Origin: Gammaproteobacteria bacterium
GTDB taxonomy: Bacteria > Pseudomonadota > Gammaproteobacteria > Pseudomonadales > Azotimanducaceae
Length of the DNA: 32,405 nt
Assembly: GCA_009842245.1 (NCBI GenBank)
Contig: VYFT01000013.1
Coordinates: 30,402 to 62,806, forward strand
Direction: 5' to 3'
The notes below the pieces were generated by a model that saw only the letters and a program-made list of their open reading frames with translations, was not told the DNA's origin and did no database searches. Position numbers and translations under genes: made by a program. Position 1 is the first letter of the stretch; each line of letters opens with the position of its first letter. Shown here piece after piece: positions 3,528-32,405 of this stretch.

Positions 3528-3528
3528 A

Positions 3529-6541: not shown

Positions 6542-6843
6542 AGCCCCTCCACCAAGAACCATGACTTTGTTCGAGCAAACTCTTGAGTAGTTAGTGAGTG
6601 GAATCATCACCTAGTGTCACGATCGCGAAGATATCCCCCAACGCATCCAGAAAAACTCGGTACCAACGGACATTGTTTCCCAGTGAAACTTGCGCGCGTC
6701 GCACAACATGTGATTGAACTTCCTTTGAGAGCGCTCAACGCACTATTCCACATTTAAATGATGCGTTAATTCAATAGAAGCTTCTTGCTCATCAAATACA
6801 GAGTTCGTGTGCAAGTAAGAAAACTCTACACCTCGCGATGAAT
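6542..6843. other. intergenic spacer after the third giant TPR gene
   Basis: These 302 bp hold the strong ribosome binding site of the next gene and presumably its promoter. On the minus strand TTGAAT followed 18 bases later by TGGAAT is a poor promoter match. AGAGTT and AACTCT could pair across a 16-base loop shortly after the TPR stop, but no U-tract follows. I see no small gene here. Confidence 0.4.
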
Positions 6844-9800
6844 TTACAGAATTGAAGTCTCGAGAGCGTCTTGTGCGGTTTCAAGCTCTTGAATTCGTTG
6901 GTTTATCTCGGTGATGTATGCGTCATCTCCTTTAGCTTCACCAATTTTTAGTAGTTCATGCAGGACCGAAAGCCCAGCATCCTCAATCGAAATCAAGCTA
7001 GCCGTCGCAAACGCTACCTCGGTTGATTCAGAATTGCGTAAAGTCTGTAAGAAAGGTACCAGTTGGGCGTTGGTGAAAAACTCATAGCCAATTCCCTCGG
7101 CTAATAAGGCCGGAGGAAGTGGGAATTCGGTCTCCACGGTCAGCGTCGCAATGGGTTCTAATTCGTTCCGACTTAGACTCGCAATATTGGTTTCCACGAA
7201 ATCATTCACCTTATTCGCAATCTTCTGTAGTTCTGACGTTCTACCTCGTTGGTTGAACTCATACGCAAGCACGCTGATTACATCAATGAGTTTTTTCTTA
7301 TGCATCGATTCGTCATTCAACCAACTTGCGAGAGCCGTAGAAATCTCGTCCATCCACTTTGCGTTGTCGTAATCTAACAGCATATCAAAGGTGTAAAACA
7401 CGAAGTCGACACTCGACGGAGCTTCGGTGTTGAAAATGTACAGTCTTTCCGGTCCTGGAATTGTGATACCGGTAATCGAGGTGTAGCTGTCGATCGCCGC
7501 CTGAACTCGATATATGGGTGGCATAATGTAAATATTAGAAGACTCTTCCTCTAGATCACTAAATTCCTTCGAAGCCTCCACTTGCGCACTTTCAAACAGT
7601 GGTTTCATATACGTTAAAGCTTCTTCCCATTGACCTGTCTTCGCATAAATGGAAGCGATGTGTATTAATGGTAGGGCTTCGTATCCTCTGAGTAGCCGTT
7701 TACTGTTTGGAAAGTCCAAGAGTTCGTCTAAGGTTGGACTGAGTTCGCGCGCCATTGAAATGACGTCCTCAGTTGGATAGACTTTCGCGAGCATTTCGAG
7801 AACTACGATATCGGCGAAGAATGACGATTCTACGCGATCGTCGTAGCGGCGCAGAATTGGCAATATGCTCTGAACAAACGCGCGACTGTACTCTGTAGGC
7901 ATCAATTCGACTACGTCATCCACAATCGTTCCAACGTGTATGTGTGCACTTGTCTGTGACAGACTAATGAAACGACTGCTATTGAAGTCTCGAAAGTTGG
8001 CGATACTCGCTACGAGTAATTTGTAGTACTGAATAGCGTTCTCCCAGTCTTCTAACCTACTATAAAACTGTGCGATATTCAGTATTTGTGAACTCGTAAA
8101 ACCTGACAAACTCTCAGTCCAGTTGAAGAATGCGGTTCGCATCTCTTCGGTAAGTTCTTGATTGACTTCGTTCGAGAGGAACATCCATAGAGTGAATTCA
8201 TGGTCGTCCGCATTGTTTGAGGTGACTTCTTCGGTCAGTTCTGCTAGACGTCTGTCCCGATCTTCATTGTGGTGTGCGTAGGCGCGAGCCACGAGTTCGT
8301 ACCATTGTGGGGAGCTCCTTCGAATCCATGGGTCTTGAGAACGGATAAGGATCTCTAGTTCACTACCAATAGAGAAGTTTGCAATTATCTTTTCTATAAG
8401 TTTGTCTGATTCGCCGGTACTGTCGTCTGTGTCTTGCTCGAGATAACTAGCGAAAGACCACGCGGTAGTACCGCTGACAAATGGCGAGTATGCATAACCA
8501 TATAAGATGGAGTACCCGTCGATTTTGGTTTGATCAGAAGGCCAATTCAAGAAAGTGTTCAATGCATTGCCAACGTAAGAAAACGGATCTTGATTGAGAT
8601 TCTGTAGGTTTATGTTTCGCCAGAAATGCCGGACCAAGTTCGCTACTTCGGTGCTGTTATTCTCCGGTCCCATTTTTGCTAATTCCGCAGCAGCGCGCTT
8701 CACGTTCTTTGGCAATCGCTCCGCGTATGGATCCGTGTCTAGCTCTTCGTCCTCAGATTCAACATCTCGGATCATATGCAATACGGCATCTGGGTGTGTG
8801 CCGTAGATATTCGGAGATTCATCGTTACGAGCAAGAATGTCATCCATAACTTCTTGGTATCGTAGGTCGTCGCCACCGTCTTGCGCTACTTCGAGCGCAA
8901 TGTCGTAGTGCTCCTGTCGCTTGCTCCAGATAAAGTATGCCGCGCGCAACGGTTCATTTAATTTGTCGCGTTCGTAGTTTTCTCGAAGTAATTGTGAGAC
9001 TTTCGACATTTCTTGAAAGTCTTTACCGATGACGTACTGCAATAGACTCATGCGGTGTGTCTCATTGTCTGGGAAGCAGGCGATCAGTGCTTTCATTACG
9101 GCTTCCGTATCTGCGAGCGGGGGTACATCTCGTCCGACGTTTACGAGGTAATCGCCGCGAGAAACTAGATAGTTCGCTTGCTCTTCCGTGGGGCAATCGC
9201 CCGCAATCATATTTTCCAGCATTTGCGTTAGTTCATCTGTGTAATTTTCTTCAATGATCGAACGCACGTAATAGTCGTTTCGCAGATCACTATCGATCAG
9301 TGTTTTGAACGCTGCGAGCTTAGAGCCTTCAAAATAGTCAGAAATCATGCCCGCGACATCGACTGCTAATTCTGTTCGGGTTGAAAGAACGTCGACAATA
9401 TCGCGCAAAACTGATAAGTTAGTTGGTTCGATATCGAAATCTAAAATGAATTGATAGACGTAACTTAGGGCGAATTCGTCTTGAAAGTCGATCTGATTGA
9501 TGAACTGAATTGCAAGGTCTTTGAATACTTCTCTTTCGCTGTTGCTAAATTTCAACTTGAGAAGATCTTGTATTGCCGTAGTTTGGTAATTGATTAGGAG
9601 CACTTGCGGAGTGCCAGTATCACCCGGTGCTTCCATGGTGTACTCAAAAAACCGGAGAAGATCGTTAGGATCATCTCTTTCAGTTAAGTACGCCCAGATG
9701 CTTGGCTTCGCCGAGTAATATCCGTCGATGTAGTCCCGAACTTCCTCTTCCTCCAGCACAGCCATGAAGTCGTCAATGGTTTCGAACATCGGTCCGTAAT

Positions 9801-12800
9801 ATTCCTCTAGCACCGATAGGAATTCAGGATCTTGCACGATTGCTCTCACTAATCGTACCGGCTCGTCATTCAATTCCAGAACAGCTGAAGAAACCAATTG
9901 AGCGAAGTCTCTGTCGTTCAACACTACTTTTCCGTAGAAAACGGCACTTCGAATAGAAGTACTTGAACCGTCGGTGATGAAGCCTTGATATATGTCTTCG
10001 ATCGGTTTCGACGCTTCGGTGAGGTTTAGCAATCGAGTTACTGTTTCCACGTCTCGACTCTCGATAGCCGCTGCTAATTCTTCACTTAGCACATCTGTCT
10101 GCTTTTCGTCTTCCTCAAAAAATACCTGTGGAAGCATCTCGTCGAGCTGAGCGGACATTTGAATTCCAAAATGGTTGTACTGTCCTTTGAGGTGTCTGGA
10201 AAACTGGCGTACTGTGCGAAAACTGTCGTAGTACTCGTGCTCTTCGTCAACTTCGTCTGCGTTCGCGAGCTCTTCAATGACATCGGGCGGTGGTGGGTTC
10301 GCAAGGAATGTCGCAGCGAGTTCAAGATCAAGTTCATTAACTATGTCTGGTCGGTCCAATGCGCCACACAATCGTCGAATGAACTGGCAGAGATAGTTCA
10401 GCTGAGAGTATCGTGACAATGGAAGTTCTTCACCATCAGCGCGCAGTGCATTGACGTTTCCTAAGACCCGCCGAAACACCATTCGAACTTTCTCAAAATT
10501 GGAATCTGACAAAGCTTCGTTATCCGGCCAGGTTGAAATCACACCCTGCGCAAATGCTTCGTAGTAAGTGGTGTAGTCTCGATTTACGCTGGTATTTCGC
10601 GAACCTGCAAATATGTAGCTAGGTCGGCGGATTCGACCAGGATTGACTTGAGGAGCATCGGCGTGGAGCTTTTCAGGCTGACTCTGCAGTATGTTCAACA
10701 TGCCGTTGAGATAGAGCGTATTTGCCACGTCATATTGGAAATTTGCTTCTCTGAGTACGCCAGTCTTAATGAGAAGCGTATTGTTGTCTTGATTTAAGGA
10801 CAGAGCGTGGCTGTAGAAAGCTAACGCTTGCTTAGTGTGTCCTGCTTCTTGGAATAGATCAGCCTTGGTTTGATTCACGTCCAAGTCGCCGGTGATGTCG
10901 CGAATCAAGTTGAGCGATTTCTCTGCGCCCAACGTGTCGTCTCTCTCTAAAAGTGTCTTCGCCAGAGAGATATACACCTCTGGTGGCAAAGCTTGACGCA
11001 ATCCGATGAGACGGCGACCATAGGTCAGTTGTCGCTCAGGATCGCCACGTTTAGCGGTGAAGGCAAAAAATCCAGCGTCTTGTGTTGCCATGGTGACTAA
11101 TTCTCTCAACACAGACAGTCGGCGTATTCCTGCTTGTGAGATCGAATTTTCGATCGCAACGAACTCTGCCTCGGTGTCTAGTGTTTCAGTGGCAATTTCT
11201 CCGAGTAGTGTATAAAGATAGAAACGGTCCTCCTTACTCGTAATCCGTTCCAAAATAATACGATGAGCCCATCGGAACGTTGCTTGGTGTTGTCGCGGTA
11301 AACGGAATCCAAACCGATTCTGCCCGATCATGTTTAGGATACCGTCAATGGCTACGACAAATTCGTTATCGTTTTTAGAATGTTCGGCGACATACTGAAA
11401 AACTGCGACTGCTTCGTCAGTTCGGTTCGACTCTTTTAGTAACTCACCCATCAACAGTAAGTTGTCGCTGTGTGTGGGATGATTTATCAGGGCTAAGCGA
11501 TAACTTTCGATAGCCTGTTCGGTGAACCCACTCATTGAGAGGACGCTGGCTTCAAACTCTCCTGTTACGGCCTCTTCATCGTATTTCTTTAGCTCTTCGA
11601 GCCAGTGAAGGATATCATCGAGCTTGTCATCGCTACTGGCTACCATATTGAACGCGACCATGTTCAAGACGATGTTTTGAATATGTTCGAGTCGATGCTC
11701 TGGGTCGATTTCCTCTAACCGTCGGAGAACCGTGTCGTACTTGTCATACTCATTCAACTGCACGTAGATTGCACCCAATTGTCTGAGCTTTTCCACCTCA
11801 GGTATGTCAGCATAAGCAGCAAATTCTTCCACGACTTCGGCTGCTGTGAAAGAGTCACCGATTTCGGTGTAGATTCGTACGAGTAGATTAATTTCGTTTC
11901 GGTCCGCGGTTTTTTCCCAGAGTTTGTCCTCTAGTTCAATCGCGAGATCAGCAAGCACGTTCAACTCTGCCGCAATCAAGAGAAATTGACTCTCAGCGAA
12001 ACTTCGACGCGCCGGAGCTGTTTCAGCGAGCCAGATTTCTTGCCAAATTTGTAAGGACTCTTCTTTGTTGCCATTTACGCTGTGGAGCCATGCTAAGCGC
12101 ATGCGATCATCGTACCCGAGTGGTTCCTCGTTAATCTCCTCTAATTTAGTAAATATCGCTAACGCGTTCTCATATTTTTGCAGCCGTTCAAAGCCGTCGG
12201 CCACGATCCTCAAGTCCCCCGAATCTTCGGGTAAGTCTTCAAGTAGTACGTTTAGCGCTTCAGTCGCTTCGTTGTAGCGACCCTTGTGATAATGTGCTTC
12301 AAAAAGAAATATCTGCCCCGTGGTTGTAGGACCGTACGCGTCAGCATGTTGTTTGATCATCTCGAGGCTTTCGGATTCAAATCCCATTTGGTTCATATAT
12401 CGTCCAGCATGCGTCAAGATGTCTATGTTGTCTGCATTGTTTTCTTGGAGTTTTCGCCAAACTGCCCAGGACTGTTCCCTTTCTGCAATACTGATGTAGT
12501 GCGAGGCTAATCCAGAGTACCAAAGTACAACATTCGGTTCCTGCTCGATCAGTCGTTCATACTCAAGAATCATTTCCTCGGTTCGCTTGGAAATGTCGTA
12601 AATTTGTAACAGGCGATATCGCGCTTCGATGTCGTCGGTTTCTTGTTCGATCGAGTGGTAGAGAGCGATTGCTTCGTCGTATAGTTCCAAATCGATGAGA
12701 AGATCAATTTGTAGATCGATTAAGTCTCGATCTTTATCTTGAAAGTTCCGAAGAATCTCAAGCAACTCTTCCAGATTCTCCTGTTTGCGATACGTTTCAT

Positions 12801-13575
12801 CAACCAAAGTCAATGCATACAGCCCATCAAACCGAGTGGTACTAGCGTCGTACGCCAACCAAGAATGAGTCTCCGCGGTTTCGTAGTCTTCTGACGTTAA
12901 TCCCCATTCCGTAAGTCGGAGCAATTGTCGGAAGTAGTGTTTGGAATTTGGATCTGGACGGTAAAGTTCAATGGCTTTGTCTGGTTGCCCTAAGATCGCT
13001 AGAGTGAGAGCGGCGCGATTTTTGAACTCTTGGTCTTGCTGTTGTGCTAACGCATACAAGTCGTCAACGTTGGTTGTATTAACCCCGATCATGGCGAGGC
13101 GAATCCGAATGAATTCCCGCTCGTCTTCCAGTTCGGTCGACTCTAGAGTTTTGTTGTACCAGTTAATAGCTTCGCGTTCTTCGCCTTGAGCATCGAGCAA
13201 TCTTGCCTTTAAAAGGGTTCCATCTGTCGTTTCGTTCAACTCGAGAGCTTGGTCTACTGCTTGAATTGCGTTTTCAAAGTTTCCATAGCGCCAATACAAG
13301 TGTGCGATACTCAAATATGACTTTGCTCGATACGCGTTGGTGTTGTTCTCATCTTCAGCGTCCGAGGTCAGTGTAGCAACTGGTTCCTCAACACTTCGAT
13401 AAGTCTTTATAGAATCGGTGTAAACATCATCAATCAGAGTCAACGACAAGCGGTTCGGACTCGCATTGTCTTCGATCAAGACTTCAATTGGTGTGCCGAA
13501 CGCTACCCAACAGAGTCCGATTCCAATGATCTTTACAAATCGTCGTAGGAAAAGAGAGAATAAATTTGGATTCAT
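6844..13575 (-). CDS. giant secreted TPR/alpha-solenoid protein C (third paralogue)
   Basis: This 2243-aa protein is the last of three tandem paralogues. An open frame continues 92 codons upstream to 13851. I take ATG 13575 because a signal-like segment follows directly (RRFVKIIGIGLCWVAFG, residues 11-27, probable cleavage near G27), because homology to the other two begins at residue 42 (RLSLTLI), and because the upstream codons add three Cys to a protein that otherwise has five in total. Residues from about 83 carry TPR motifs (YRAKSYLSIAHLYWRYG) over roughly the first thousand residues. After that comes a less regular helical half ending in a C-terminal block shared by all three (AGLSVLHELLKIGEAKG). 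It is strongly acidic. Mature cysteines occur only as C-x6-C (about 1066) and a DCP...CFP pair (about 1460 and 1500). No catalytic motif is seen. It is probably a periplasmic scaffold or partner-binding rod for the vWA membrane proteins upstream. The ribosome binding site is weak. Confidence 0.85.
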   Translation of the reverse strand: MNPNLFSLFLRRFVKIIGIGLCWVAFGTPIEVLIEDNASPNRLSLTLIDDVYTDSIKTYRSVEEPVATLTSDAEDENNTNAYRAKSYLSIAHLYWRYGNFENAIQAVDQALELNETTDGTLLKARLLDAQGEEREAINWYNKTLESTELEDEREFIRIRLAMIGVNTTNVDDLYALAQQQDQEFKNRAALTLAILGQPDKAIELYRPDPNSKHYFRQLLRLTEWGLTSEDYETAETHSWLAYDASTTRFDGLYALTLVDETYRKQENLEELLEILRNFQDKDRDLIDLQIDLLIDLELYDEAIALYHSIEQETDDIEARYRLLQIYDISKRTEEMILEYERLIEQEPNVVLWYSGLASHYISIAEREQSWAVWRKLQENNADNIDILTHAGRYMNQMGFESESLEMIKQHADAYGPTTTGQIFLFEAHYHKGRYNEATEALNVLLEDLPEDSGDLRIVADGFERLQKYENALAIFTKLEEINEEPLGYDDRMRLAWLHSVNGNKEESLQIWQEIWLAETAPARRSFAESQFLLIAAELNVLADLAIELEDKLWEKTADRNEINLLVRIYTEIGDSFTAAEVVEEFAAYADIPEVEKLRQLGAIYVQLNEYDKYDTVLRRLEEIDPEHRLEHIQNIVLNMVAFNMVASSDDKLDDILHWLEELKKYDEEAVTGEFEASVLSMSGFTEQAIESYRLALINHPTHSDNLLLMGELLKESNRTDEAVAVFQYVAEHSKNDNEFVVAIDGILNMIGQNRFGFRLPRQHQATFRWAHRIILERITSKEDRFYLYTLLGEIATETLDTEAEFVAIENSISQAGIRRLSVLRELVTMATQDAGFFAFTAKRGDPERQLTYGRRLIGLRQALPPEVYISLAKTLLERDDTLGAEKSLNLIRDITGDLDVNQTKADLFQEAGHTKQALAFYSHALSLNQDNNTLLIKTGVLREANFQYDVANTLYLNGMLNILQSQPEKLHADAPQVNPGRIRRPSYIFAGSRNTSVNRDYTTYYEAFAQGVISTWPDNEALSDSNFEKVRMVFRRVLGNVNALRADGEELPLSRYSQLNYLCQFIRRLCGALDRPDIVNELDLELAATFLANPPPPDVIEELANADEVDEEHEYYDSFRTVRQFSRHLKGQYNHFGIQMSAQLDEMLPQVFFEEDEKQTDVLSEELAAAIESRDVETVTRLLNLTEASKPIEDIYQGFITDGSSTSIRSAVFYGKVVLNDRDFAQLVSSAVLELNDEPVRLVRAIVQDPEFLSVLEEYYGPMFETIDDFMAVLEEEEVRDYIDGYYSAKPSIWAYLTERDDPNDLLRFFEYTMEAPGDTGTPQVLLINYQTTAIQDLLKLKFSNSEREVFKDLAIQFINQIDFQDEFALSYVYQFILDFDIEPTNLSVLRDIVDVLSTRTELAVDVAGMISDYFEGSKLAAFKTLIDSDLRNDYYVRSIIEENYTDELTQMLENMIAGDCPTEEQANYLVSRGDYLVNVGRDVPPLADTEAVMKALIACFPDNETHRMSLLQYVIGKDFQEMSKVSQLLRENYERDKLNEPLRAAYFIWSKRQEHYDIALEVAQDGGDDLRYQEVMDDILARNDESPNIYGTHPDAVLHMIRDVESEDEELDTDPYAERLPKNVKRAAAELAKMGPENNSTEVANLVRHFWRNINLQNLNQDPFSYVGNALNTFLNWPSDQTKIDGYSILYGYAYSPFVSGTTAWSFASYLEQDTDDSTGESDKLIEKIIANFSIGSELEILIRSQDPWIRRSSPQWYELVARAYAHHNEDRDRRLAELTEEVTSNNADDHEFTLWMFLSNEVNQELTEEMRTAFFNWTESLSGFTSSQILNIAQFYSRLEDWENAIQYYKLLVASIANFRDFNSSRFISLSQTSAHIHVGTIVDDVVELMPTEYSRAFVQSILPILRRYDDRVESSFFADIVVLEMLAKVYPTEDVISMARELSPTLDELLDFPNSKRLLRGYEALPLIHIASIYAKTGQWEEALTYMKPLFESAQVEASKEFSDLEEESSNIYIMPPIYRVQAAIDSYTSITGITIPGPERLYIFNTEAPSSVDFVFYTFDMLLDYDNAKWMDEISTALASWLNDESMHKKKLIDVISVLAYEFNQRGRTSELQKIANKVNDFVETNIASLSRNELEPIATLTVETEFPLPPALLAEGIGYEFFTNAQLVPFLQTLRNSESTEVAFATASLISIEDAGLSVLHELLKIGEAKGDDAYITEINQRIQELETAQDALETSIL

Positions 13576-13919: not shown

Positions 13920-16900
13920 TTACAGAACTCGAACCTCCAACGTGTTTCGAGCTAATTCAAGCGCTTCAATTCGTTCGTCCAAGTCAGCTACAAATGCTTC
14001 TTCGTTCGCTGCCGCACCTACTTCTCTCAGTTCTTTAAGTATGGACAATCCAGATGTTTCGATAGGGATTTCTTGAATTGCCACAAACATTTCCTCCGGC
14101 GTACCCGTTTCACGCAACTTTTGTATCAATGCGATACGCTGTTCGGTTGAAAAGTAACCTAAGCTCAACATTTTGGAGAATAATACAGGAGTTAACGGAA
14201 ATTCCGCCTGATTCGCAAGATAAGAGAAAGGTACTAATTGTCTCGAAGTGAGACTCTCTACTCTCTCTGTTAACCATCGCGTTAGCTTGCTTGCAAGAGC
14301 ACTTCTACTTTCGTGCTTCTCAAGTTTGAAATACTCGTTGTATATGACTGCAAGCAGATCAATCACGATGTCTGAGTCTACATCGTCGTTGTTCAAGAGC
14401 TGAACAAACTCGTCGGTCAAACGATCCATCCACGTATCGTTCTCAAAGTCAAACAGCCGATCATGCATTGCGAATACCAATTCTGCACTAGAAGTGTACT
14501 TTTGATTTGAAGGGTTCGGCATGTTAAAGGGAACAGTAATTCCTAGCGTGTTGGAAAATTCTCTGATTAAGTTTTCGAGATAGTAAATCTCATTGGGTCG
14601 ACCGAACGGACTGTACCTGTCCATGCTCATATCGCCAATATCTGAAGATGAAGCGATACTTTCCGTTGATAACAATTGCTTGATTTGACCCAATGCGTCA
14701 TTGAATTTTGAACCACTAATCTGAACTTGGATCGTGGCAATCAGAGGTAGTGCTTCAAACGGTTTCACCGGAGTGCTATGATCGTCCGGGAGCGTTGTTG
14801 ATGCGCGAATTTCTCGGGCGATTTCGAAGATTTCATCAGGCTGAAAAACCTTACCCAAGATTTCAATGTTGAATAGATCCGAAATAAACCGCCCAATTTC
14901 ACGATCGTCGAATCGTTGGGCTACAGGTAACAAGCTCTTTATGAACGCTTTACTTTCCTCAGGTGGCAACCATGCAATCACATCCTCAAAGATAAGAGCT
15001 AGCGACAGAGGTTGGTTGTTATTCCTATAACCGTAGTAACCGCTCTGAAATTCGTTAAAGTCCGCGCGATTCACCACCAATAATTTGTATATTTCAGTCG
15101 CCTTATCCCACTCATCCAATCCAGCAAAAAACCGAGCTACATTTAGTAGTTGTGGTTGCGTAGGAGAATCCAACTCACGAGCCCACTCCTCGAACTTTGT
15201 GATCACCTCAAGTGAGGGTTGAGTTTGAGACTCGTTCGTGAGGTGCATCCACATCATGAATTCATGTTCGTTAGCAACGCCAGACAGAATCTTGTCTGTG
15301 AGTTCCTGCAATCGTTGTGTAAGGTCATCGGGATGGTGCCCATACGCTTTGCGAATCGTTTCATACCACCTCGATTTTTCATCCGTTTGGCTACCATAAA
15401 AGAAGCTGTACTGGTACGGGTTGTAAGGATTGTTTTGGGACCGGAGCAAAAGTTCGAGCTCGCGCCCTAATGGAAACATTTCAATAGTCCGATCCATTAA
15501 TCGTTCGTAGTCGGTCTGTTCTCGATATGAATAGTTTGCCCTGCCTATGTAGGAAGACCAGTTGAAAGCAAAACTTCCATAACCATAGTAACTGGAACCA
15601 TAGAAATTCACGTGCCCGGATTCCTCAAAATCGAACGGCCAATCCAGAAACATAAGAGTTTTCGACCCGCCCATGGAATAAGGGGAGCTGGTGTCTAAAC
15701 TTTGGAGGTTTATATTGCGCCAAAATAGTCGCACAGCTTCGGCGGCGTCAGATGCACTAGCGGTCTCATCAAGTTCAGCTATTTTTGTAGCGGCTCGAGC
15801 GACGTTTTTAGGATACCGGTCGACTATTGGGGGCGCTGTAAATTCGTTAGTAGGACGCAGTTCGCTCGGTATCAATGAACGTAGTATGTAAGCTTCCGAA
15901 CTACCGGTACGCACGTTCTCTTCATTGCTTGCGATGATATCCGCTAAGATCTCCTGGTTGCGAAGATCAGGGCCACCGTCGGTAGCAACATTCAGCGCGT
16001 CGACAAAGAATTCTCGTTGCTTATTCCAAAAGAAATATGCAGTGCGAATCGACTCATTAGTTTTATCTCGTTCGTAGACTTCGTTAAACAATTTTCGCAC
16101 TTCTTTTGTGTCATTGCTGTATAGCGTCGACCGCAGCAGATCGATCTCATAACTAGTATCTTCTGGGAAACACTGCATCAACCCGCGAGTGTAGTCGGTC
16201 CTCAGGGCTTGATATGCTTGTCGGTCGGCACCAAAACGATTAAAGGCGTAGTTTGCAACGCTATCGATCTTAGCGATGAGCTCTTCTGTTAAACAGTCTC
16301 CGTCTATCACTCGCTGCATCGTCGCACGAATTTCTTCGTGGAATCGGGTGCCAATTAAATCCTGTACCACCCAAGATATGTACTCCCCTGGTTCCACATC
16401 TAACAACGTTAGAAAAGCTTCCTCTTTGGAACCTTCGTAGTACGCGGGCAGAATCACTTCGAGCTTCCAATCTTCACCCAGTCGTTCGTCTACTGCGTCA
16501 TACACTTTCAAAAGTAAGTCAAGGTTGTCAGGATGGGCGTCAAAGATTGCAACTAGTTGCCACACAGATTGAGATATGTATTCATCCTGAAAGTCGATTG
16601 TTCTCACCATGTCTAAGGTCGCTGCTTCCAGAGTCCGGCGTTGAGAGTTGTTCAGATCAAGCCTTACTAACTCTTCGTACATTTGTGCAAGAGTGCGTAC
16701 GTGTGGTTGATAGGGCGGTGGATCCGGTGGAAGGCTGTCAACGACATACTCATAGTATTTGACGCTCTCGTTGGGATTTTCGCGAGACTGAATGTATTGC
16801 CACAGTCCCATGCTACCGTACTGCAGTCCTTGGCGCATATGCACATTGTCCGGATCCTCTAGGATTAGCTTAATTTCGTCAAAATCCCGGAAGAGCGGTC

Positions 16901-24000: not shown

Positions 24001-27000
24001 GAGTCTCGAGCAGATCAATAATCTCATCCACGGACTCAAAGAATGGACCATAGTCCTCTTCTATCTCTTGAATTAAGTTGACGTTTCCAGACAGTAATTG
24101 GATTAATTCTTGAGGACTGTCTTTTAGTCTAGAGACAATGCGTGAAGTCAGTCGAGCGACGGTAACCTCGTCGAAAAGCTGCTTCGCATATCTAAGCACT
24201 TGTTGATAGTTGCGATTCTCAACCATTTGCTGGAACACTTCGTCAACTGGTTCCGGTAAGGTCATAATGGCGGCGAGGCGAGCGATTCGATCAACGTTTT
24301 GACTTTGTACGGCCATTCGAAAATCTCGCTTAAGCAAGTTTTCGTCTGCTAATTCCTCTGCGGACAGGCTATCGTCGTCGCCTTCAGAGCGGTCTGGTAC
24401 TAAGGCAAGAATTTCTTCTGGAATCTTCAAACCATACAGTTTGTATTCGCTTTCGATGGTCGAGAAGAAATCTCCTGAAGTAACCGTTGTTGTAAGTCTA
24501 TCTCCTCCAGGTAACGTAATCGTCGTCGACGTGGTGATGGAGCGCTTGCCTTGAGGATCATTTTTGTCATTTAATGCTTGCTCTGGCTCTGAAGTTGGAA
24601 CATCGATGAACACTTCCGCAAGCTGGATGTCGCGTGCGTAAATAAACTCTTCCTGCCCAACTGATGCACCAAGGCGGCGGATGAATTTAGAGAGATGGTC
24701 CAAACGAGAGTAGCGGGGTAGGTGGACTCCTTCTTCCTCCTCTCTCATCTCAATGACGCTCGCGAGTTCTTTTTGAAACATCACGTCGATCTCAGCGAGA
24801 TTAGCTGCTACTTCAGTTTCTACCGTCGGCCAGGTAGCGATTACACCTTGAGTAAAAGGTTCAAAGAACGTCTGGTAGTCGCGATTCACGCTCAGATTCC
24901 GACTCCCACCAGGCATTCGTATACCTACCGGGAGCATAGCTTGGATGTTCGCCATGTTCGACGGTGCTTGAGAGTCAGTGTGGAGCTTCTCGGGTTGAGT
25001 GCGAAGTACGTTGAGTATTCCTTTCATGTAAAGCGTGTTGGCAACATCTAGCTGTCCATTCGCTTCCCTCAATACCGCAGTCTTGAGTAGCAAAGTACTG
25101 TCGTCCTGATTTAGGGCTAATGCGGTGCTGTAAGAAGTAAGTGCTTGTTTGACGTACCCTGCTTCTTGAAACAAATCGGCTTTTGTTTGGTTAATGTCGA
25201 TTAGACCAGTGATATCTCGCACTAAATTCAACGACTTCTCCGCACCAAGAGTGTCGTCGCGGTCCATCAACGTCTTTGCCAGATTGATGTAAACTTCAGG
25301 CGGTAATTGTTGACGGAGGCCTATGAGACGGCGACCGTACCGGAGTTGGCGTTCTGTATCTCCAGCTTTTTGATTCAATGAAAATACACCAGCGTCTCGC
25401 GTGGACATCGTCACCAATTCGCGTAAGACAGAGAGCCGTCGAATTCCCGCTTGGGAGGTGGAATTTTCGATAGCGACAAACTCGCCTTCGGTGTCAAGAG
25501 TTTCCATCGCGATTTCGCCAAGTAACGTGTATAGGTAAAACTTGTCGTCGCTACCAGTGATTCGTTCTAAGATAATCCGGTGAGCCCATCGAAAAGTTGC
25601 TTGGTCGTTGGGTGGGAGCCTTTGTCCAAAGCGTTCTTGCCCGATCATGTTTAGGATGCCATCGATCGCAACGACAAACTCGTTATCGTCACGTGAATGC
25701 TCAGCAACATATTGGAATACGGCCACGGCTTCATCGATACGACCCGTCTCTTTCATCAAATCTCCCATCAGGAGCATGTTATCACTGTGTTCTGGGTGGC
25801 GCACTAACGCATATCGGTAGCTTTCAATAGCTTCCTCGCGGAATCCACTCATAGAAAGAACGCTAGCTTCAAATTCACCAGTCACCGCTTCCTCGTCAAA
25901 CAAGCGCAACTGTTCCAGCCAGTGTTTAATTTCGTCTAACTTTTCATCACTTTCTTCTTGTACCGTAAAGGCAACCATGTTCAATACGATGTTTTGGATG
26001 TGTTCAAGACGATTTTCGGGGTCGACTTCTTCGAGTTGCCTCAATACCTTGTCGTACTTATCGTATTCTTGTAGTTGCAAGTACACGGACCCAAGCTGAC
26101 GGAGTTTGTCCACTTCTGGCATGTCCGAGTACCGTGCATATTGTTCGACTACCTCAGCGGCTGAAAACGAGTCTCCGACCTCCGTATAAATTCGAACAAG
26201 CAGGTTGATGTCATTTTTATCAGCGCTTTGTTCAGTGAGTTTGTTTTCTAGGTCGATTGCAATGCGGGCGAGCTTATTGAGTTCGGCTGCAAGTAAAAGA
26301 AACTGACTTTCCGCAAACGCCCGTCTAGCGGGTGTATTTTCTTGGAGCCAAATTTCCTGCCAAAGACGCAGTGCTTCTTCCCGATTCCCAATAACGCTAT
26401 GGAGCCAAGCAAGTCTCATACGGTCGTCATAACCTAATGCTTCACCTTGATATTCCTCGACTTTGGAGAATAGTTGCAATGCTTGGTCGTACTTTTGCAA
26501 ACGTTCATAAGCATCCGCTACGGTACGCAAGTCTCCAGCATCTTCAGGTAGAAACTCGACCAGTTGATTCAAAGCTTCGATAGCTTCGTTGTTGCGACCC
26601 TTGTTGAAATGTACTTCAAACAAATACATTTGCCCAGTGGTTGTTACGCCGTGCGATGCGCGGTGTCGATCAACCATTGCGAGACTTTCGGCTTCAAAGC
26701 CCATTTGGCCCATTAATCGACCTGCATGGACCAGCAAATCAATGTTTTCTGAGTTGTTCTCTTCAAGAGTACGCCATACCTCGCCGGCGCGCTCAGGTTC
26801 CGCAACAGCCACGTAGTGAGATGCTAAACCAGAATACCACAACACAGTGTCTGGTTCCTCGTCGATAAGCCGTTCGTACTCTGCAATCATCTCATCAGTA
26901 CGCCTGGATACATCGTAAATCTGCAACAACCGAAATCGTGCGTCAAGATCGGTGGGATCGATCTCCATAGAGCGGTACAACTCTATCGCTTCGTCGTAGC

Positions 27001-27907
27001 GTTCCAGGTCAGTGAGTAGGTCAATGTGCAAGTCGACCAAATCTTGATCTTTGTCTTTACGCTCATTTAATTCGGTGACCAATTTGTCCAATTCCCCGTT
27101 GAGCCGGTAAGCTTCATCGACCAGAGTCAGCGCGTAAAGTCCGTCGAAACGAATATCTGTGCTGTCATACGCGCGCCAAGCAAATTCTTGGGCAGTTTCA
27201 TAATCTTCCGCAATAATCGCCCACTCTGCGTAGCGGATTAGATGCCGAAAGTACTTCTCGTCGTTCGGGTCAGGCTTGTATAGTTCAAGTGCTTTATCCG
27301 TATGCCCAAGTACCGCAAACGTAATAGCAGCCCGATTCTTAAACGTTTGATCTCGGTCGGTAGCAAGTTTGTAAAGTGCGTCGACGTTACTCTTATCAGT
27401 GTCAATCATCGCAAGACGAATCTGGATGAATTCTCGTTCGTCGGGACTGTCGGAACCAGCAAACGCTTGTTCGTAGTGCTCTAAAGCTAGTGACTCATCT
27501 CCGTTCGCGTCTGCTATTCTTCCCGCTAGGATGAAGTAGTCAATCGCAAGTTCGTCTTGTAACGATTCGTTTTCCGCAAGCGTGGTGAGAACTTCTGTAG
27601 CTTGGGGCAGTTGTCCATAACGCCAATATAGGTGAGCGATGGACAAATACGACTTTGCGCGATGCCAAGTCTCGTTTTCCGAGTCTTCAGCAGTCTCCGT
27701 AAGATTGGACACTGCTGCTTCAATACTCTGGTTCTCTAGTATCGATTCGTTAAATACTTCTTTAATTAATTCAAGGGATAGACGTCCCTTTTGTGCGTTA
27801 CTCGCGTCGAGTGCATCCAGAGTAGGTATTGCCGCGTGTGTGGTCACGTTGGCAACAACAAGTAGTACTAGACCGATTAGCGAGGAGGTGAGTGGCTTGA
27901 CTTTCAT
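21059..27907 (-). CDS. giant secreted TPR/alpha-solenoid protein A (first paralogue)
   Basis: This 2282-aa protein has a clear Sec signal peptide (hydrophobic residues 9-20, cut after THA at 25). GAGGGA seven bases before the ATG and a gap of only 31 bp after the vWA gene tie it to the DUF58/vWA operon. TPR motifs start at about residue 83 (HRAKSYLSIAHLYWRYG) and continue through the N-terminal half. Colinear landmarks are SQAGIRRLSVLRELVTM (about 826), LFWRNLNTQNI (about 1676) and AGLSVLRELAEIG near the end. It contains only two cysteines, DGEC and LLECFPEN (about 1488 and 1524), and lacks the C-x6-C pair of B and C. Private insertions are a Thr-rich linker (about 1125-1150, TTSTTITLPGGDRLTTTVTS) and a Ser/Gly/Val low-complexity stretch (about 2045-2095). 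It is probably a periplasmic partner of the vWA proteins. No catalytic motif is seen. Confidence 0.9.
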   Translation of the reverse strand: MKVKPLTSSLIGLVLLVVANVTTHAAIPTLDALDASNAQKGRLSLELIKEVFNESILENQSIEAAVSNLTETAEDSENETWHRAKSYLSIAHLYWRYGQLPQATEVLTTLAENESLQDELAIDYFILAGRIADANGDESLALEHYEQAFAGSDSPDEREFIQIRLAMIDTDKSNVDALYKLATDRDQTFKNRAAITFAVLGHTDKALELYKPDPNDEKYFRHLIRYAEWAIIAEDYETAQEFAWRAYDSTDIRFDGLYALTLVDEAYRLNGELDKLVTELNERKDKDQDLVDLHIDLLTDLERYDEAIELYRSMEIDPTDLDARFRLLQIYDVSRRTDEMIAEYERLIDEEPDTVLWYSGLASHYVAVAEPERAGEVWRTLEENNSENIDLLVHAGRLMGQMGFEAESLAMVDRHRASHGVTTTGQMYLFEVHFNKGRNNEAIEALNQLVEFLPEDAGDLRTVADAYERLQKYDQALQLFSKVEEYQGEALGYDDRMRLAWLHSVIGNREEALRLWQEIWLQENTPARRAFAESQFLLLAAELNKLARIAIDLENKLTEQSADKNDINLLVRIYTEVGDSFSAAEVVEQYARYSDMPEVDKLRQLGSVYLQLQEYDKYDKVLRQLEEVDPENRLEHIQNIVLNMVAFTVQEESDEKLDEIKHWLEQLRLFDEEAVTGEFEASVLSMSGFREEAIESYRYALVRHPEHSDNMLLMGDLMKETGRIDEAVAVFQYVAEHSRDDNEFVVAIDGILNMIGQERFGQRLPPNDQATFRWAHRIILERITGSDDKFYLYTLLGEIAMETLDTEGEFVAIENSTSQAGIRRLSVLRELVTMSTRDAGVFSLNQKAGDTERQLRYGRRLIGLRQQLPPEVYINLAKTLMDRDDTLGAEKSLNLVRDITGLIDINQTKADLFQEAGYVKQALTSYSTALALNQDDSTLLLKTAVLREANGQLDVANTLYMKGILNVLRTQPEKLHTDSQAPSNMANIQAMLPVGIRMPGGSRNLSVNRDYQTFFEPFTQGVIATWPTVETEVAANLAEIDVMFQKELASVIEMREEEEGVHLPRYSRLDHLSKFIRRLGASVGQEEFIYARDIQLAEVFIDVPTSEPEQALNDKNDPQGKRSITTSTTITLPGGDRLTTTVTSGDFFSTIESEYKLYGLKIPEEILALVPDRSEGDDDSLSAEELADENLLKRDFRMAVQSQNVDRIARLAAIMTLPEPVDEVFQQMVENRNYQQVLRYAKQLFDEVTVARLTSRIVSRLKDSPQELIQLLSGNVNLIQEIEEDYGPFFESVDEIIDLLETPEAKQQAARSFFMYQRIWDYIRRRENNDEMLQYYEYQVAQPTSNDPRVRSMTYDHINKYAELVEMEWNRQQRSRFKTAATDLINQIDFQDEYVMSSLLRMVLNFNIHEDSQDVHLDVVRMISQRAELGFDAFEIFEDYFDDRRDSAFSKLLNANVDTRWSYSVQSAIMQYFREEANGMLLAMVDGECPDESHVALLFPSRGFSTPFINTDIDRYVLGQSLLECFPENDEYRRNLIVYAIESGIKSRIGEQLQSAYERDNTIEGIRTAHFLWNKQQEDYVSALAVASDGEPDLSKRDILDDILKRNDASRYKYGNHPDNILTLVRNKGNMMNIGSRIILGIDDRIPKNIKTAANAIAQLDDSNNSRDAGDALRLFWRNLNTQNIGGSQRIYLPGTPLGMFMNWPLNQSELANTDFYGYSRSPYVTFASTLSMYLMQKSIEQPEVSDKLLDWLVSQFSVGRDLELHLMAQTPSQRQYAHQWYNLLVQAYALHPRDRDERLAELTSAVLTETADEHEFSLWMYLSNIAEQDVSAEMLDAFNQWVAELSSPTALQTLNIAQLFARTELTEKAIDYYTLYALNLSRSDPYFGSVRISYGGDPNNPVDLFGLIDTVAQNTSITTAQKFVERILPMVRPFDVDVPEQSLNAKTVELLAQVYPADEVLEVAERLRPSIAELLQNGKRNVAPETDAIKPLLQIIRVLVETGELNEAVKYLRPIFVEVVVEETDGQDISGPDALIAAGNTVISVGGASISVSAAQASAVISAVSGGLPISVSAGPGGSGGSSDAEVPLVSPNVMQLFRERDTIFDFDNDDWMNLLVASMTDWLEDEKLDERGLIEMLSVIAFEYDLRDEPEKVANAWSKISTWLTKYHRSLDQRSIQPFFQLAVDAEFPLDPEVVSYAFELDVLDPTDIATILKTLRESNTATEAFATAETISIDSAGLSVLRELAEIGLSVNNDEYVREVVAKIRTLETAHRELEPSVL

Positions 27908-27938
27908 TGAAAGGTCCCTCGTCTTGTCAAGTGTGTGT

Positions 27939-30434
27939 TTAGCTAGCTCTAGGCCAGCGTCTATATATCAGGTCTCCAAGGTATGCAAGAAGTGCGAGGA
28001 GAAAAATCCATGGCCGAAAATCGAAAATACCGTAGGCCACACTTCCCATACTGAGCGTTTGTGTGAGTTCAGTGGAGTTGGAATCAGATACGGACAAACC
28101 ACCAGTTTGATCCGCTAGTGCATCGAGATCCAAACCATTAACGGGATCAACCTGATTCTCACGAACTTGATCGGTAGCGGCTAAGCTGACAACTCGCCAT
28201 TCTCGATTGTTGAACGTATTGCCAACACCCATGTAGAGATCCGCTTTTGCGGATGAACGAATATCTGCTTCATATAACCCCGGCGCGGTTTCATCAAAAT
28301 CTGGTGCTGTCCCTTCGTGCGGTGTGGAGTCTAGCTCATATAGCTGTAGAGTAGGGCTTAACTCTTCTACTCTCGGGACACGGTTAGCAATGACCGTAGT
28401 CTTACCATACTGCCTGCGTACATCAATTTCGAACACGCGAACCTCCGGGGCAGTCTTACGTACGATTCGTCCGAGAAATTCCGAATAGTCTTCCCAATTG
28501 TTCCACGTACGGGTCCCCTCACCGACAGGTTCAGTCATCATAGCAGTGACGCGACCCAGTCCGAACAACCATGTAGCGACGACGGGGTGTTCAGTCTCCT
28601 CCACAGCAAGCAATACTTCGGCACCGTCTTTAGCCGATACTTCAACGTAACCGTTTAGAGGACGTATAGACTCAGGTTCAATCTCGCCCCACCAGCCAGT
28701 TCCAGCGCTCGCAACTAGTTGAAACGCGCCACGTTTATACATAGGCGATTTCTTCGTTGAAGACTGCTTGAAAATTAAGTCAATTATTTGGAACTGATTA
28801 CCGACAGCGTAGAAACGACCGCCACCCCAATTAGCGAAGTCAGCCATTATTTGATTGTGCCCGCCCTGTCCGACCAAAATCGTTGACAATGTGATCCGAT
28901 CGCGGTTGATTCGTCGTACCATCGCCTCGTAGTTCGCGTCTTCGACACCTGCATCGGTGATGAGAATGATGTGCTTGAATCGCGTGTTAACGTTTTGTAG
29001 ACCATAGTAAGCTTCCTGTACGGCAGGAAACATCACGGTTCCACCAATTGCTTTCATTCGACCGATTGCTCGATCGACCTCAATCTTGTTGGTCGCAGGT
29101 TGCATTGGGATTGCCCAGTGTTTATTGCCATAGAACTCGACAATTCCAATTCGGTCATGTGGTTGTAATCGGCGTACTGCTAGCCTAGCTATGTGTTTAG
29201 CCAATTCAATGCGACTACCACCCATTGATCCGGACGTATCAAGAATGATCGCGACTCCGACGCTTGGGTCAATTTTGTCCTGGTCGCCAGGAATGTCCAC
29301 TGGGAACAAATCGGTAAGCGGGGAGTCGTGAAATCCACCGTCACCAAAAGCAGCTTCGCCTCCGCTGTGGATCAATCCCGTACCCTGTTCTTTTACCTGC
29401 TCGGCGATTTTGTTTAGCAAATCTTCGTCGAGCGAACTTGTTGGTACATCGTCAACTAATACTACATCGTACGGCGATATTGGGTACGTACCATCTATCT
29501 CTTGAGGATTTGGGGCGTCAATTTCGAATCCAGATCCCAGCAATCGTTCTAAATTATTTTTTGCACCTACCTGTCTTTCCCCCAGATACAGAACTCTCAC
29601 AGGGTTCTGAATCGGCAACACAGATCGCATTGAGTTGTTTGTCAAATCGGGGTCTAGAGACTCGTCGACGTTTAGTGTCACTTCTATTTCCTTAAAGCCA
29701 GGTTCGTCGACTCGGAAAGACAGTACTTGTCGTATTCTCCCGTCACTGACGAGTTGTTCACTTTCAGCTAGTGTTTGATCCGTTTCTACATCCCGCACCA
29801 TGATGCTAAAATCGGACGCACTTCCAACGACATCAACATAAACCTTCGCATCATCTCCGGCTCGGACGTCATTGGCTTCGACACCACTGACAAATATGTC
29901 TGAGTCGTCACTTAGCTTGACGGAGTTCACTGGTATCCCTCGAGAAATCAAATGATCGTAAGACTGTCCCCAGTGCCGATCGGTCGCGAGACCGTCCGAT
30001 ATCAAAGTGACTGAACCCTGCTCACCCAGAGGAATCATCTGCGCCGCTTTTTCTAGCGCATCGCCCAAAGGTGAGAGATCGTCATTCAGATGAGTTACCG
30101 CTTCACCTTCGACTACCGGTTCTTCACCGCCAATTTGTATGAAACTGACATCACCTTCGCGGCTGAATTGTGTACGCAATTCCTGTGCAGTCTCAACCGC
30201 TTCGCTTCGTTGAGATTCTGTCAGGCTCGCAGACTGATCTAAGATGATGGCAAAGTGCTTGTCTTCACTGTCCGTAATAAACACGGGCTTCATCAAACCG
30301 ACGGTCAGTAGCGCGAGTATCAAGGACCGTATTACTAGGTGTGGAATACGTCGTTGACCGCCCGGCCAAAACCATAAAACCGGCAACAGAAAAAATAGTA
30401 ATGCGAATAACGGGTAGGTAAATGAAATGTCCAT
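27939..30434 (-). CDS. membrane protein with two vWA domains and a glutamine-amidotransferase-like domain
   Basis: This 831-aa protein has two N-terminal membrane helices (about 5-23 and 31-50, with basic GGQRR between them) and one near the C-terminus (about 808-824, followed by YRRWPRAS). By the positive-inside rule the large middle part is periplasmic. Its order is a first vWA domain (about 58-175, MIDAS D66-x-S-x-S70, D147 in LISDG), a beta-rich segment, a class I glutamine-amidotransferase-like fold (about 278-385, LIHSGGEAAFGDGGF) without the nucleophilic Cys, and a second vWA domain (about 392-560, MIDAS D399-x-S-x-S403, T466, D494). A beta-rich C-terminal part follows. Proteins of this layout sit beside MoxR AAA+ and DUF58 genes. 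The start is one base after the previous stop, with GGAGG inside that gene's last codons. It probably binds metal-dependent protein ligands, possibly the TPR proteins encoded next. Confidence 0.9.
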   Translation of the reverse strand: MDISFTYPLFALLFFLLPVLWFWPGGQRRIPHLVIRSLILALLTVGLMKPVFITDSEDKHFAIILDQSASLTESQRSEAVETAQELRTQFSREGDVSFIQIGGEEPVVEGEAVTHLNDDLSPLGDALEKAAQMIPLGEQGSVTLISDGLATDRHWGQSYDHLISRGIPVNSVKLSDDSDIFVSGVEANDVRAGDDAKVYVDVVGSASDFSIMVRDVETDQTLAESEQLVSDGRIRQVLSFRVDEPGFKEIEVTLNVDESLDPDLTNNSMRSVLPIQNPVRVLYLGERQVGAKNNLERLLGSGFEIDAPNPQEIDGTYPISPYDVVLVDDVPTSSLDEDLLNKIAEQVKEQGTGLIHSGGEAAFGDGGFHDSPLTDLFPVDIPGDQDKIDPSVGVAIILDTSGSMGGSRIELAKHIARLAVRRLQPHDRIGIVEFYGNKHWAIPMQPATNKIEVDRAIGRMKAIGGTVMFPAVQEAYYGLQNVNTRFKHIILITDAGVEDANYEAMVRRINRDRITLSTILVGQGGHNQIMADFANWGGGRFYAVGNQFQIIDLIFKQSSTKKSPMYKRGAFQLVASAGTGWWGEIEPESIRPLNGYVEVSAKDGAEVLLAVEETEHPVVATWLFGLGRVTAMMTEPVGEGTRTWNNWEDYSEFLGRIVRKTAPEVRVFEIDVRRQYGKTTVIANRVPRVEELSPTLQLYELDSTPHEGTAPDFDETAPGLYEADIRSSAKADLYMGVGNTFNNREWRVVSLAATDQVRENQVDPVNGLDLDALADQTGGLSVSDSNSTELTQTLSMGSVAYGIFDFRPWIFLLALLAYLGDLIYRRWPRAS

Positions 30435-30435
30435 C

Positions 30436-32169
30436 TTAGGGCATTAGCCTCCGTTGATAAATGTACCACTCTGTAAACACTAAGGCTAGAGCTAAGAGCA
30501 TTAGCCAAGTAATAAGCTCCCAAAGTGGGTATGGTGAGGTGGTGGGAGACGTTCCACTGTCTACGATGTCCGGGCTGAGGCTTCCAACAGTTGAAGTCTT
30601 ATCCAACAAGGAAATGACTCCAGGCAGCTCATCGGTCAATTCAAACTCTCCAGTAGCGTTCCGAACGAAGTACGTACCGACCGCAAGTTCAGAAAGAGCG
30701 TCAGTATCCGCTAGCGACGTACCAGCACTCTGTTCAATAGCCTGTCTTCCAGCCGCCAAGTACGCATACCATGGTGCTTCGTCGGCGAGGTAACGCATTG
30801 ATTTGGAGATGAACAAAGGAAAGCTGATGCTCTCGCGAAAGTTGAATTCGTCTTCGACAACAGGTTGCCACACCGAGACAAAGCGCTGATCACCAAAGTG
30901 TAAGCGTACCGAAATATCACGTTCGATCTCTTGCGCGATTGCAGTCGCATCAATCTGTTCAAGACCGAGTCGTTCAATCGTACGATCTAAAGCCCTTTCA
31001 CTGTTTATGTCTTGAGGTCCGACATACCCGATTTCGAATGCTTGTTCTTGGGCCGTCTCTGCGACGACTTGAAACGTGGGAAGTGTCGATGGAGGATCTG
31101 TTGGTCCCAGTACGGCAACTTCTGCTTCACTTTCTGGTACGATGACTAGCGCCGGATCAGCGTTGAGTGCAGGCAGTATCGATGCGGGAACGTTAGCTCC
31201 AAGGTAGACTGGAATCTGCCTCCTAGTGGGTAAGACTAAACTTGCTTCATTGTCAAATTCAAGATCGTCTTCGCCTGCCAGTGACACATTAAGTTGTGAT
31301 CCGTCGGCTAGAACATCACTGAGCAAAAAGTCTGAATCTTCAACCGCTCTTAAATTGTCGCTTGATACCACTTGTTCTCCAACGGTTATCGTCAAGTCCG
31401 AAGCTGTGACAGCGTCCGCGTTGTTTTGCAAAACGCGTATGAGTACATCAACTCTGTCCCAAGCACCAGAAAGTGGCTCACCGACTCCAAGAGCAACGAT
31501 ACCTCGGTTTGAAAATTCGCTATCGTCTTCCGGTAGTCGACTTTCGACACTCACATTGTCTGGCAAATCGTCGATAACTTCGGGAGGTATTGACGACCTA
31601 CCGTAAACTATTACGTGAACTTGGTTCTCTGCGTTTACGGCATCTCTTGCAATTAATCGAAGCTGATCTTCAACGCTTGAACGAGCGGATACAGGTGTTT
31701 GGTCATCCAACCGTTGCTTTAGTACTTTCGTCTCCTCGTCGGATGCGAGTACCTTAAGGTTGTGTTCTCCAGCGAAGTACACTTCTCTTTGTTGATCAGG
31801 ATAAGAGCGTACGTCGTTGAGCAGTTGCTGTTTCGAAATCTCGAAGTCATTGCCAACAGCGCTTTGAGCTGAACCGTCAAGGATGAGCGCGTAAAAATTT
31901 GCGGTCTCGGAACGGTCGGTTCGCAAATCGGCGAAACCGAGCCAAAGAAGCGCACAGATCAGCAGGCATAGTAACCACGCTAGCCAGTGTTTAAATCGCT
32001 GACGAAAGACTCGCACCGGAGCATCGCGTACTGCTTCCGCCCAAAAGAGTGTCGTCGCGACGGGTATTCGAGTGTACCGAATTCTTAGTTGCTGTAACAG
32101 ATATAGTCCGCCTGCCAACGCGACGAGACCTGCACCGAAGAGCAAGGGGCTTAAGTTTAATAGATTCAT
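30436..32169 (-). CDS. BatA-like membrane protein with degenerate vWA domain
   Basis: This 577-aa protein has the N-terminal two-helix BatA module: a first helix at about 8-26, a cytoplasmic basic loop with LFWAEAVRDA, and a second helix at about 62-80. A periplasmic region follows, then a C-terminal helix at about 549-570 and a basic tail YQRRLMP. The vWA-like domain begins at about residue 92, but its MIDAS reads D98-G-S100-A-Q102, so the second Ser is replaced, and the later Asp-Gly of strand 4 is absent (HVIVYGRSS). It therefore probably does not bind metal there. The start overlaps the DUF58 stop as ATGA and the stop is one base before the next gene, so all three are translationally coupled. 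It is likely a structural partner of the two-vWA protein in a MoxR-linked membrane complex. Confidence 0.85.
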   Translation of the reverse strand: MNLLNLSPLLFGAGLVALAGGLYLLQQLRIRYTRIPVATTLFWAEAVRDAPVRVFRQRFKHWLAWLLCLLICALLWLGFADLRTDRSETANFYALILDGSAQSAVGNDFEISKQQLLNDVRSYPDQQREVYFAGEHNLKVLASDEETKVLKQRLDDQTPVSARSSVEDQLRLIARDAVNAENQVHVIVYGRSSIPPEVIDDLPDNVSVESRLPEDDSEFSNRGIVALGVGEPLSGAWDRVDVLIRVLQNNADAVTASDLTITVGEQVVSSDNLRAVEDSDFLLSDVLADGSQLNVSLAGEDDLEFDNEASLVLPTRRQIPVYLGANVPASILPALNADPALVIVPESEAEVAVLGPTDPPSTLPTFQVVAETAQEQAFEIGYVGPQDINSERALDRTIERLGLEQIDATAIAQEIERDISVRLHFGDQRFVSVWQPVVEDEFNFRESISFPLFISKSMRYLADEAPWYAYLAAGRQAIEQSAGTSLADTDALSELAVGTYFVRNATGEFELTDELPGVISLLDKTSTVGSLSPDIVDSGTSPTTSPYPLWELITWLMLLALALVFTEWYIYQRRLMP

Positions 32170-32405
32170 ACTAGTAAATTTCTTGTTTGGAACATCAAAC
32201 TCAATTGGTCTAAGATGTCTTTTTCGGTATCGATTTGAACTAAACCTGAGCCAAGAGAATCCGCGAGATCGATAAGGGATTCGTTGAATGTGCCGTAAAC
32301 ACGTTTGTATTCGCGAATCACCTGAGGTTCAATAGTTACATCAATTGCTTCATCCAATTCACAATCGACTAAACGAAGGTCCCCGACAATCTCTGGGTTC
32401 AATTC
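32166..32405 (-). CDS. DUF58 protein, C-terminal end only
   Basis: An open frame enters from the right edge and ends at TGA 32166-32168, giving 79 residues. It matches the C-terminus of DUF58 proteins: a VDCELDEA core strand region, then a helix with REYKRVYGTFNESLIDLADSLG, then VQIDTEKDILDQLSLMF. This corresponds to the family's closing pattern of a Tyr-containing helix, a hydrophobic strand, a TD/TE motif and a final helix. DUF58 proteins are soluble, contain a vWA-like fold and lie directly after moxR in Bat-type operons, so a moxR gene is expected further right. The stop overlaps the next start by four bases. The frame has no true start in the window. Confidence 0.75.
   Translation of the reverse strand, partial: ELNPEIVGDLRLVDCELDEAIDVTIEPQVIREYKRVYGTFNESLIDLADSLGSGLVQIDTEKDILDQLSLMFQTRNLLV

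Follow-up and report, generated by a model that had tools for sequence, protein, structure and literature searches.

Envelope gene sets of the MoxR/DUF58/vWA kind are widespread, but for most of them the clients are not known. Among them, the Bat operons (MoxR-DUF58-BatA-BatB-BatC-BatD-BatE) join MoxR and DUF58 to membrane vWA proteins with a periplasm-facing domain and to TPR partners. The locus described here has the same kinds of components, and in it MoxR is likewise followed by DUF58, on contig C82 of the same genome and in relatives. It differs from Bat operons in that its repeat partner is about 2240 aa long and in the addition of two members, a protein of about 550 aa (P550) and a transmembrane (TM) protein with four segments. 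On reading through the ORFs of the conserved block we recognised no BatC, BatD or BatE.

According to the available text of one report, MoxR proteins are thought to be chaperones that mature specific complexes together with vWA partners (PMC3893208). In Rhizobium leguminosarum, the MoxR operon RL3499-RL3502 (MRP subfamily) has been tied to envelope integrity in the accessible sections of three papers (PMC3893208, PMC5118466, PMC5700661). By its description it shares MoxR with our locus, and the same sections mention no giant solenoid for it. The PFNA cluster of Bifidobacterium (pkb2-fn3-aaa-atp-duf58-tgm) likewise places MoxR and DUF58 beside a large species-specific secreted protein, as the accessible part of the source describes it (PMC8430577), but it differs in its FN3 beta domains, kinase and transglutaminase, and it belongs to a Gram-positive bacterium. 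The MoxR-vWA ternary conflict systems (VMAP and others) also couple a MoxR-vWA chaperone pair to a third, variable protein, although the portion of the source available does not list a giant solenoid of the periplasm in the role of that third protein (PMC7159879). In general Pfam and PADLOC scans of the scanned members of our locus, we found no VMAP, iSTAND, FtsH or beta-propeller, and bpMoxR matched MoxR only. At the generic level of the solenoid fold there was a match to LbcA (7rqf), a much shorter TPR protein that partners the protease CtpA of Pseudomonas aeruginosa. We know of no link between LbcA and MoxR.

A literature search did not find, in the text accessible to it, any block that combines P550 with an exported ~2240-residue solenoid. 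The engine of the locus, that is, the MoxR set, is already known; the variant with P550 and a giant exported solenoid is new, and it looks like an undescribed envelope machine.

Results

The window, by which we mean the whole stretch of 32,405 nucleotides analysed, corresponds to bases 30402-62806 of contig C21 (62806 bases), in a genome of 2.58 Mb and 83 contigs. It contains the following genes.

32166..32405, minus strand: final 79 codons of the DUF58 gene, which is truncated at the end of the contig
30436..32169, minus strand: BatA-like membrane protein, 577 aa, with three hydrophobic segments and, in its vWA-like region, a degenerate MIDAS
27939..30434, minus strand: vWA/GATase-like membrane protein, 831 aa, with an intact MIDAS and a large domain predicted to be periplasmic
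21059..27907, minus strand: giant alpha-solenoid g1, 2282 aa, with TPR families over cut-off, a conserved orthologue group and a signal-like N-terminus
13920..20777, minus strand: giant alpha-solenoid g2, 2285 aa, with TPR families over cut-off and a conserved orthologue group
6844..13575, minus strand: giant alpha-solenoid g3, 2243 aa if counted from the ATG at 13575, with TPR families over cut-off and AlphaFold2 models

A first-pass annotation had described this set of frames, and the BatA-like protein, the vWA/GATase protein, the three giants of more than 2200 aa and the 31-bp spacing between the vWA gene and g1 are all present. The DUF58 gene that it reported is there too, but only as the last 79 codons, because the right end of the window is also the end of the contig. 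The DUF58 stop overlaps the BatA-like start by 4 bases, the BatA-like and vWA genes are 1 bp apart, and the giants are separated by 281 bp (g1-g2) and 344 bp (g2-g3). Such gaps, in which no terminator-like site was found on the minus strand, leave room for separate g2 and g3 promoters. One minus-strand promoter-like site (21028-20999) lies inside the first gap, and over the 19 kb scanned such sites were no commoner than in shuffles (20 vs 23.5). The g3 frame can be read from 13851 (2335 aa, that is, 92 codons beyond the ATG at 13575); in five of five g3 orthologues (L045-L049) the first start codon lies 3 residues ahead of the position of this ATG, and the g3 start was taken as the ATG at 13575.

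Downstream of g3, at 4053-6610, the window contains two overlapping genes (437 and 415 aa) coding for hydrophobic N-termini, with one sub-threshold FG-GAP match and one lipobox-like VTSC (by eye) between them. The 437-aa gene was present in one of 58 genomes, the own, and the 415-aa gene in one copy in the own genome, where it was searched. Tyrosine/homogentisate degradation genes (HPPD, homogentisate dioxygenase-like and a MarR regulator) occupy positions 596-3999 and flank the last giant in several relatives as well.

AAA_3 gave four matches in the genome of the window, three of them above cut-off (C62, C26 and C82). The end of C82 carries two copies of the TM-protein gene, moxR and then a DUF58 gene running off the contig, and family scans of this contig identified MoxR (AAA_3, 1.5e-61) and DUF58 (5.2e-23). 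With the 301-aa DUF58 of G011 as reference, the C82 fragment (219 residues) corresponds to residues 1-219 (97% match) and the fragment in the window (79 residues) to residues 223-301 (94% match), leaving three residues missing between C82 and C21. Since the ends of these contigs share no exact overlap of at least 20 bases, their adjacency is inferred and not proved, and rests on the DUF58 fit and on the intact order in relatives. On these terms, the moxR that the first-pass annotation had expected upstream fits at the end of C82, across the contig break, and it is in place in relatives.

The C82 MoxR has AAA_3 and AAA_lid_2 over cut-off and the P-loop motif GVPGLGKT; its closest solved structure is 2r44 (E=1.2e-81), and it also matches the bpMoxR family above cut-off (2.5e-15). 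The DxSxS motif is kept in all nine DUF58 rows recovered from 13 sources. The three MoxR proteins of the genome are 40-44% identical. As read from translations by eye, C62 carries a Bat-type operon made up of MoxR, DUF58, two vWA membrane proteins (one BatA-like, the other seemingly bearing TPR-like repeats) and a BatD-like protein, and C26 another MoxR-DUF58 cluster. The best explanation is that the genome has three MoxR systems and that the one in the window is separate from the Bat-type operon.

The TM-protein gene upstream of moxR is doubled at L009:3326-5110 and 5675-7459 and at G011:C27:69994-73982. The own copies have 95% DNA identity along 2.1 kb, including 1628 bp without any mismatch, and those of G011 99.8%; the TM proteins of the two genomes are only about 89% identical to each other. 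Such near-identical copies within genomes may reflect either concerted evolution or an assembly artefact.

Of the two membrane proteins, only one keeps the MIDAS. The vWA/GATase protein has it intact (Pfam VWA_2, 5.4e-15; GATase1_like 27.0 bits, at cut-off), with D399/S401/S403/T466/D494 invariant in 7/7 rows, but the BatA-like protein lacks the second serine of DxSxS in all 12 rows obtained from 13 sources (L056 yielded none), showing DGSA in 11 and DASA in L055. Against Pfam BatA it scored 19.2 bits (E=0.0016), below the cut-off of 25.9.

Hydropathy gave three segments for the BatA-like protein (1-19, 62-80 and 548-566), with basic residues between the first two, and two N-terminal segments for the vWA/GATase protein, with a third at the C-terminus seen by eye under the threshold. 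By the positive-inside rule, the large domains of both proteins are predicted to be periplasmic. In the accessible part of a study on Borrelia, the vWA domain of BB0173 faces the periplasm (PMC5700661). Each giant has one N-terminal hydrophobic segment. For MoxR the sole segment above threshold is the P-loop region, and for DUF58 there is none. MoxR and DUF58 should thus be cytoplasmic, without an N-terminal export signal, and P550 and the giants, with their signal-like N-termini, appear to be exported from the cytoplasm. Hydropathy therefore fits the earlier picture of periplasmic vWA domains beside exported giants.

A genome-contig scan seeded with two peptide patterns gave 27 loci. Sources include Parashewanella curva C51 (Alteromonadales; L069), a Woeseiaceae MAG (L059) and two records titled as uncultured Pseudomonadales chromosomes (L062 and L066), and nearly all others are MAG contigs. 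We surveyed 25 stretches of the own genome and relatives by tblastn with seven kinds of block gene plus a further family, S600, treated below. The order P550-TM-MoxR-DUF58-BatA-vWA-giant, on a single strand, was complete in ten of them (G003, G006, G023, L059, L060, L061, L062, L064, L068 and L069). G010 and G011 keep this order from the TM protein onward, without P550 upstream; L052 and L057 start inside the TM gene and L051 at MoxR, and in G014 the block runs from P550 through vWA, where the contig stops. The remaining stretches are cut by contig ends or show the distal part of the block only.

The first giant lies directly downstream of vWA in 19 of the 21 stretches showing that position. 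The exceptions are L066, with a giant at the head of the block, and L070, with no core gene within ~2.4 kb upstream of the giant. P550 and the four-segment TM protein are conserved members beyond the set recognised earlier. P550 has a signal-like N-terminus (by eye), C-terminal TPR matches that are weak at most, and a weak sub-threshold match to the BatC model (E=0.067). In the own clade of the window P550 is located elsewhere than the block; the own genome has two relatives of it, about 32% identical, together on C13.

Giants were found at E<=1e-50 in 12 of 58 related genomes, the own included, and seven more had weak matches only (2e-5 to 1e-3). The same 12 genomes have the vWA protein (E<=1e-30) and P550 (E<=1e-10), and the other 46 have none of the three at these thresholds. 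Together with the adjacency described above, this bears out the linkage between giants and vWA genes that had been proposed. Since 11 of the 12 genomes belong to one genus, they do not represent 12 independent events, and much of the co-occurrence is accounted for by common ancestry. Of 369 genomes drawn from the class, only the own one had the N half of the giant, and three had the vWA protein, namely the own genome and two others; in these two, G270 and G351, it is about 25% identical and lies beside DUF58, with MoxR also in G351, and there was no giant on the stretches fetched. In a draw of 398 genomes from the phylum, vWA at E<=1e-25 was found in the own genome only. To judge from these searches, the block is present in a small number of gammaproteobacteria.

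Several Pfam TPR families scored above cut-off in all three giants, with the best stretches mostly in the N half (g3 scanned from 13851). The halves of g3, modelled separately with AlphaFold2, are both all-helical (pLDDT 84.2 and 81.7). The model of the N half has 57 helices, and neither model shows a barrel or a strand-rich domain. The whole protein is thus modelled as a single solenoid, helical throughout, in which some 2240 residues form about 120 helices. Compared with five giants from outside the clade, those of the window are 43-50% identical in the N half and 17-23% in the C half, and the C halves of the three paralogues are 31% identical to one another. By these figures the N half is conserved and the C half is faster-evolving. 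Purifying selection was found in all seven orthologous pairs with unsaturated dS, with dN/dS of 0.03-0.14 (N half) and 0.06-0.23 (C half). This selection and the recurrence of the gene order in other contigs indicate that the locus is more than a chance arrangement.

Trees of both halves were made by a quick method from 33 and 32 rows. The proteins g1, g2 and g3 fall into three orthologous groups, and members of each occur in the window and in five or more further MAG loci, which implies that the triplication predates these species. Within the genus, L055 (G010) has one giant, G006 two and G007 four, the second and third of G007 being recent copies. Outside it we saw one giant per block, although in L064 an additional, incomplete giant-like match (19602-21033) lies past the main one. 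On this distribution, two to four giants are a derived state of the genus of the window. The first-pass annotation had read the giants as the TPR partner of a Bat operon expanded in triplicate, which does not agree with the single giant outside the genus nor with the separate Bat-type operon on C62; the presence of the latter means that the giants did not replace it.

In G006 (C8:77704-91423), two giants are identical over a run of 2821 bp within the N half, outside which their identity is about 46-60%. The own genome has an extra, isolated giant-like frame of 1737 aa (G000:C55:12980-18193), whose C-terminal end looks frame-shifted and which is possibly a decaying copy. It adjoins tandem S600 genes, six full and one partial.

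S600 is a family of ~600-640 aa with an N-terminal anchor, whose genes lie between g2 and g3 in G007, G011, L048 and L049; the window itself has none. At E<=1e-5 there are 52 matches in the own genome, a pair of which probably come from one gene, including arrays of 11 consecutive genes on C9 and of seven filling C20, and others on C19, C55, C72 and further contigs. S600 genes are also found on G007:C1 and G013:C43. At E<=1e-10, and with the proviso that matches are not exactly genes, the giant-bearing genomes G002, G004, G008, G010 and G014 have 44, 64, 50, 34 and 59 matches, and G006, G007, G011 and G013 at least 74, 78, 77 and 77. In all, ten of the 11 giant-bearing genomes of the genus, the own included, have 34 or more (range 34 to at least 78), and the seven giant-free members have 0-6 (among these, the completeness of G001 and G012 is only 78% and 77%). 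In G003 the block is entire and yet there are only three matches, and G023, a giant-bearing genome from another genus, has none, hence S600 cannot be an obligate client. Two S600 members scanned gave no Pfam family above cut-off. Short matches of the S600 profile to designed PPR proteins suggest a helical-repeat fold, and profile comparison showed no relation with either half of the giants.

Discussion

The reading as an enlarged Bat operon found no support, given that a Bat-type operon is present separately (C62, by eye). We tentatively favour, at slightly less than even confidence, a MoxR-powered periplasmic assembly machine, the mechanism of which is put together from sequence features. MoxR/DUF58 would spend ATP on the cytoplasmic side and switch the membrane vWA proteins, whose MIDAS or neighbour domains would dock the conserved N half of the giant. 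The variable C half would hold lineage-specific clients or envelope partners, and the machine may then assemble or scaffold complexes of the periplasm or outer membrane. Where several giants are present, each additional one would bring new client specificities to the same engine, and the anchored, solenoid-like S600 proteins are candidate clients or partners in the genus of the window. Such a machine is supported by the block order, the co-occurrence, the identity contrast between N and C halves, the MIDAS, the topology, the helical models, the selection and the S600 counts. Against it count the layouts of L066 and L070, the absence of upstream P550 in G010 and G011, the own P550 relatives on another contig, the contig break across which the MoxR-DUF58 adjacency was deduced, the gaps allowing separate g2 and g3 promoters, and the common ancestry of 11 of the 12 co-occurring genomes. 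For S600 as a client, the low count in G003, its absence from G023 and the lack of a profile relation to the giants also count against.

The same predicted compartment, the very long solenoid, the faster-evolving C half and the co-occurrence with vWA and P550 would also suit an envelope scaffold, in which the giant is a strut from the inner-membrane vWA proteins to the peptidoglycan or outer membrane and MoxR/DUF58 only assembles it. Loss of the strut would give envelope fragility, as for RL3499-RL3502, for which the accessible text reports membrane/envelope and morphology defects (PMC3893208, PMC5700661). We consider this rather unlikely, though still worth attention, as three to four divergent giants per genome, with paralogous C halves at 31% identity, seem more than a strut needs.

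A further reading, which we regard as quite improbable, is that giants, P550 and S600 are extracellular symbiosis factors of animal-associated bacteria, matured by the MoxR set. Most of the 27 loci are MAGs, several of whose names we take to be those of sponge projects, and the expansion occurred within one genus. In the accessible part of the work on Bifidobacterium PFNA, MoxR and DUF58 are also linked with FN3, a large secreted protein that binds the host (PMC8430577). Nevertheless, the N-termini are signal-like or single-anchor and nothing more, none of the conserved members was recognised as an outer-membrane export gene, and for the putative sponge origin a literature search on one MAG name led to no source paper. 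Least probable of all, and hardly to be expected, is a role in conflict (defence), as in the MoxR-vWA ternary systems, the C half of the giant then supplying the variable modules: the bpMoxR match over cut-off, the one variable component and the paralogue expansion agree with it, but the components look membrane-bound or exported, both halves are under purifying selection, and no effector domain was recognised in the scanned members. Moreover, PADLOC gave no family at E<=0.01 for DUF58 (C82 fragment), BatA-like, vWA and g3, and weak AAA-type matches only for MoxR.

Returning to the assembly machine, a huge exported partner in fixed order with membrane vWA proteins offers a direct test of what periplasmic vWA domains bind, and the block occurs in a named strain, Parashewanella curva C51. 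Additionally, S600 represents a large uncharacterised family that tracks the machine within one genus. It is conceivable, though in our opinion unlikely, that the giants are exchangeable client adaptors of the MoxR machine, in one genus servicing the hyper-expanded S600 family. If this were true, the locus would be part of a system for envelope-protein diversification, with a constant engine, adaptors with a constant N half and a variable C half, and a large paralogous client set. The S600 repertoire serviced in this way, with some 34 to at least 78 proteins anchored in the membrane, would take up a few per cent of the genome.
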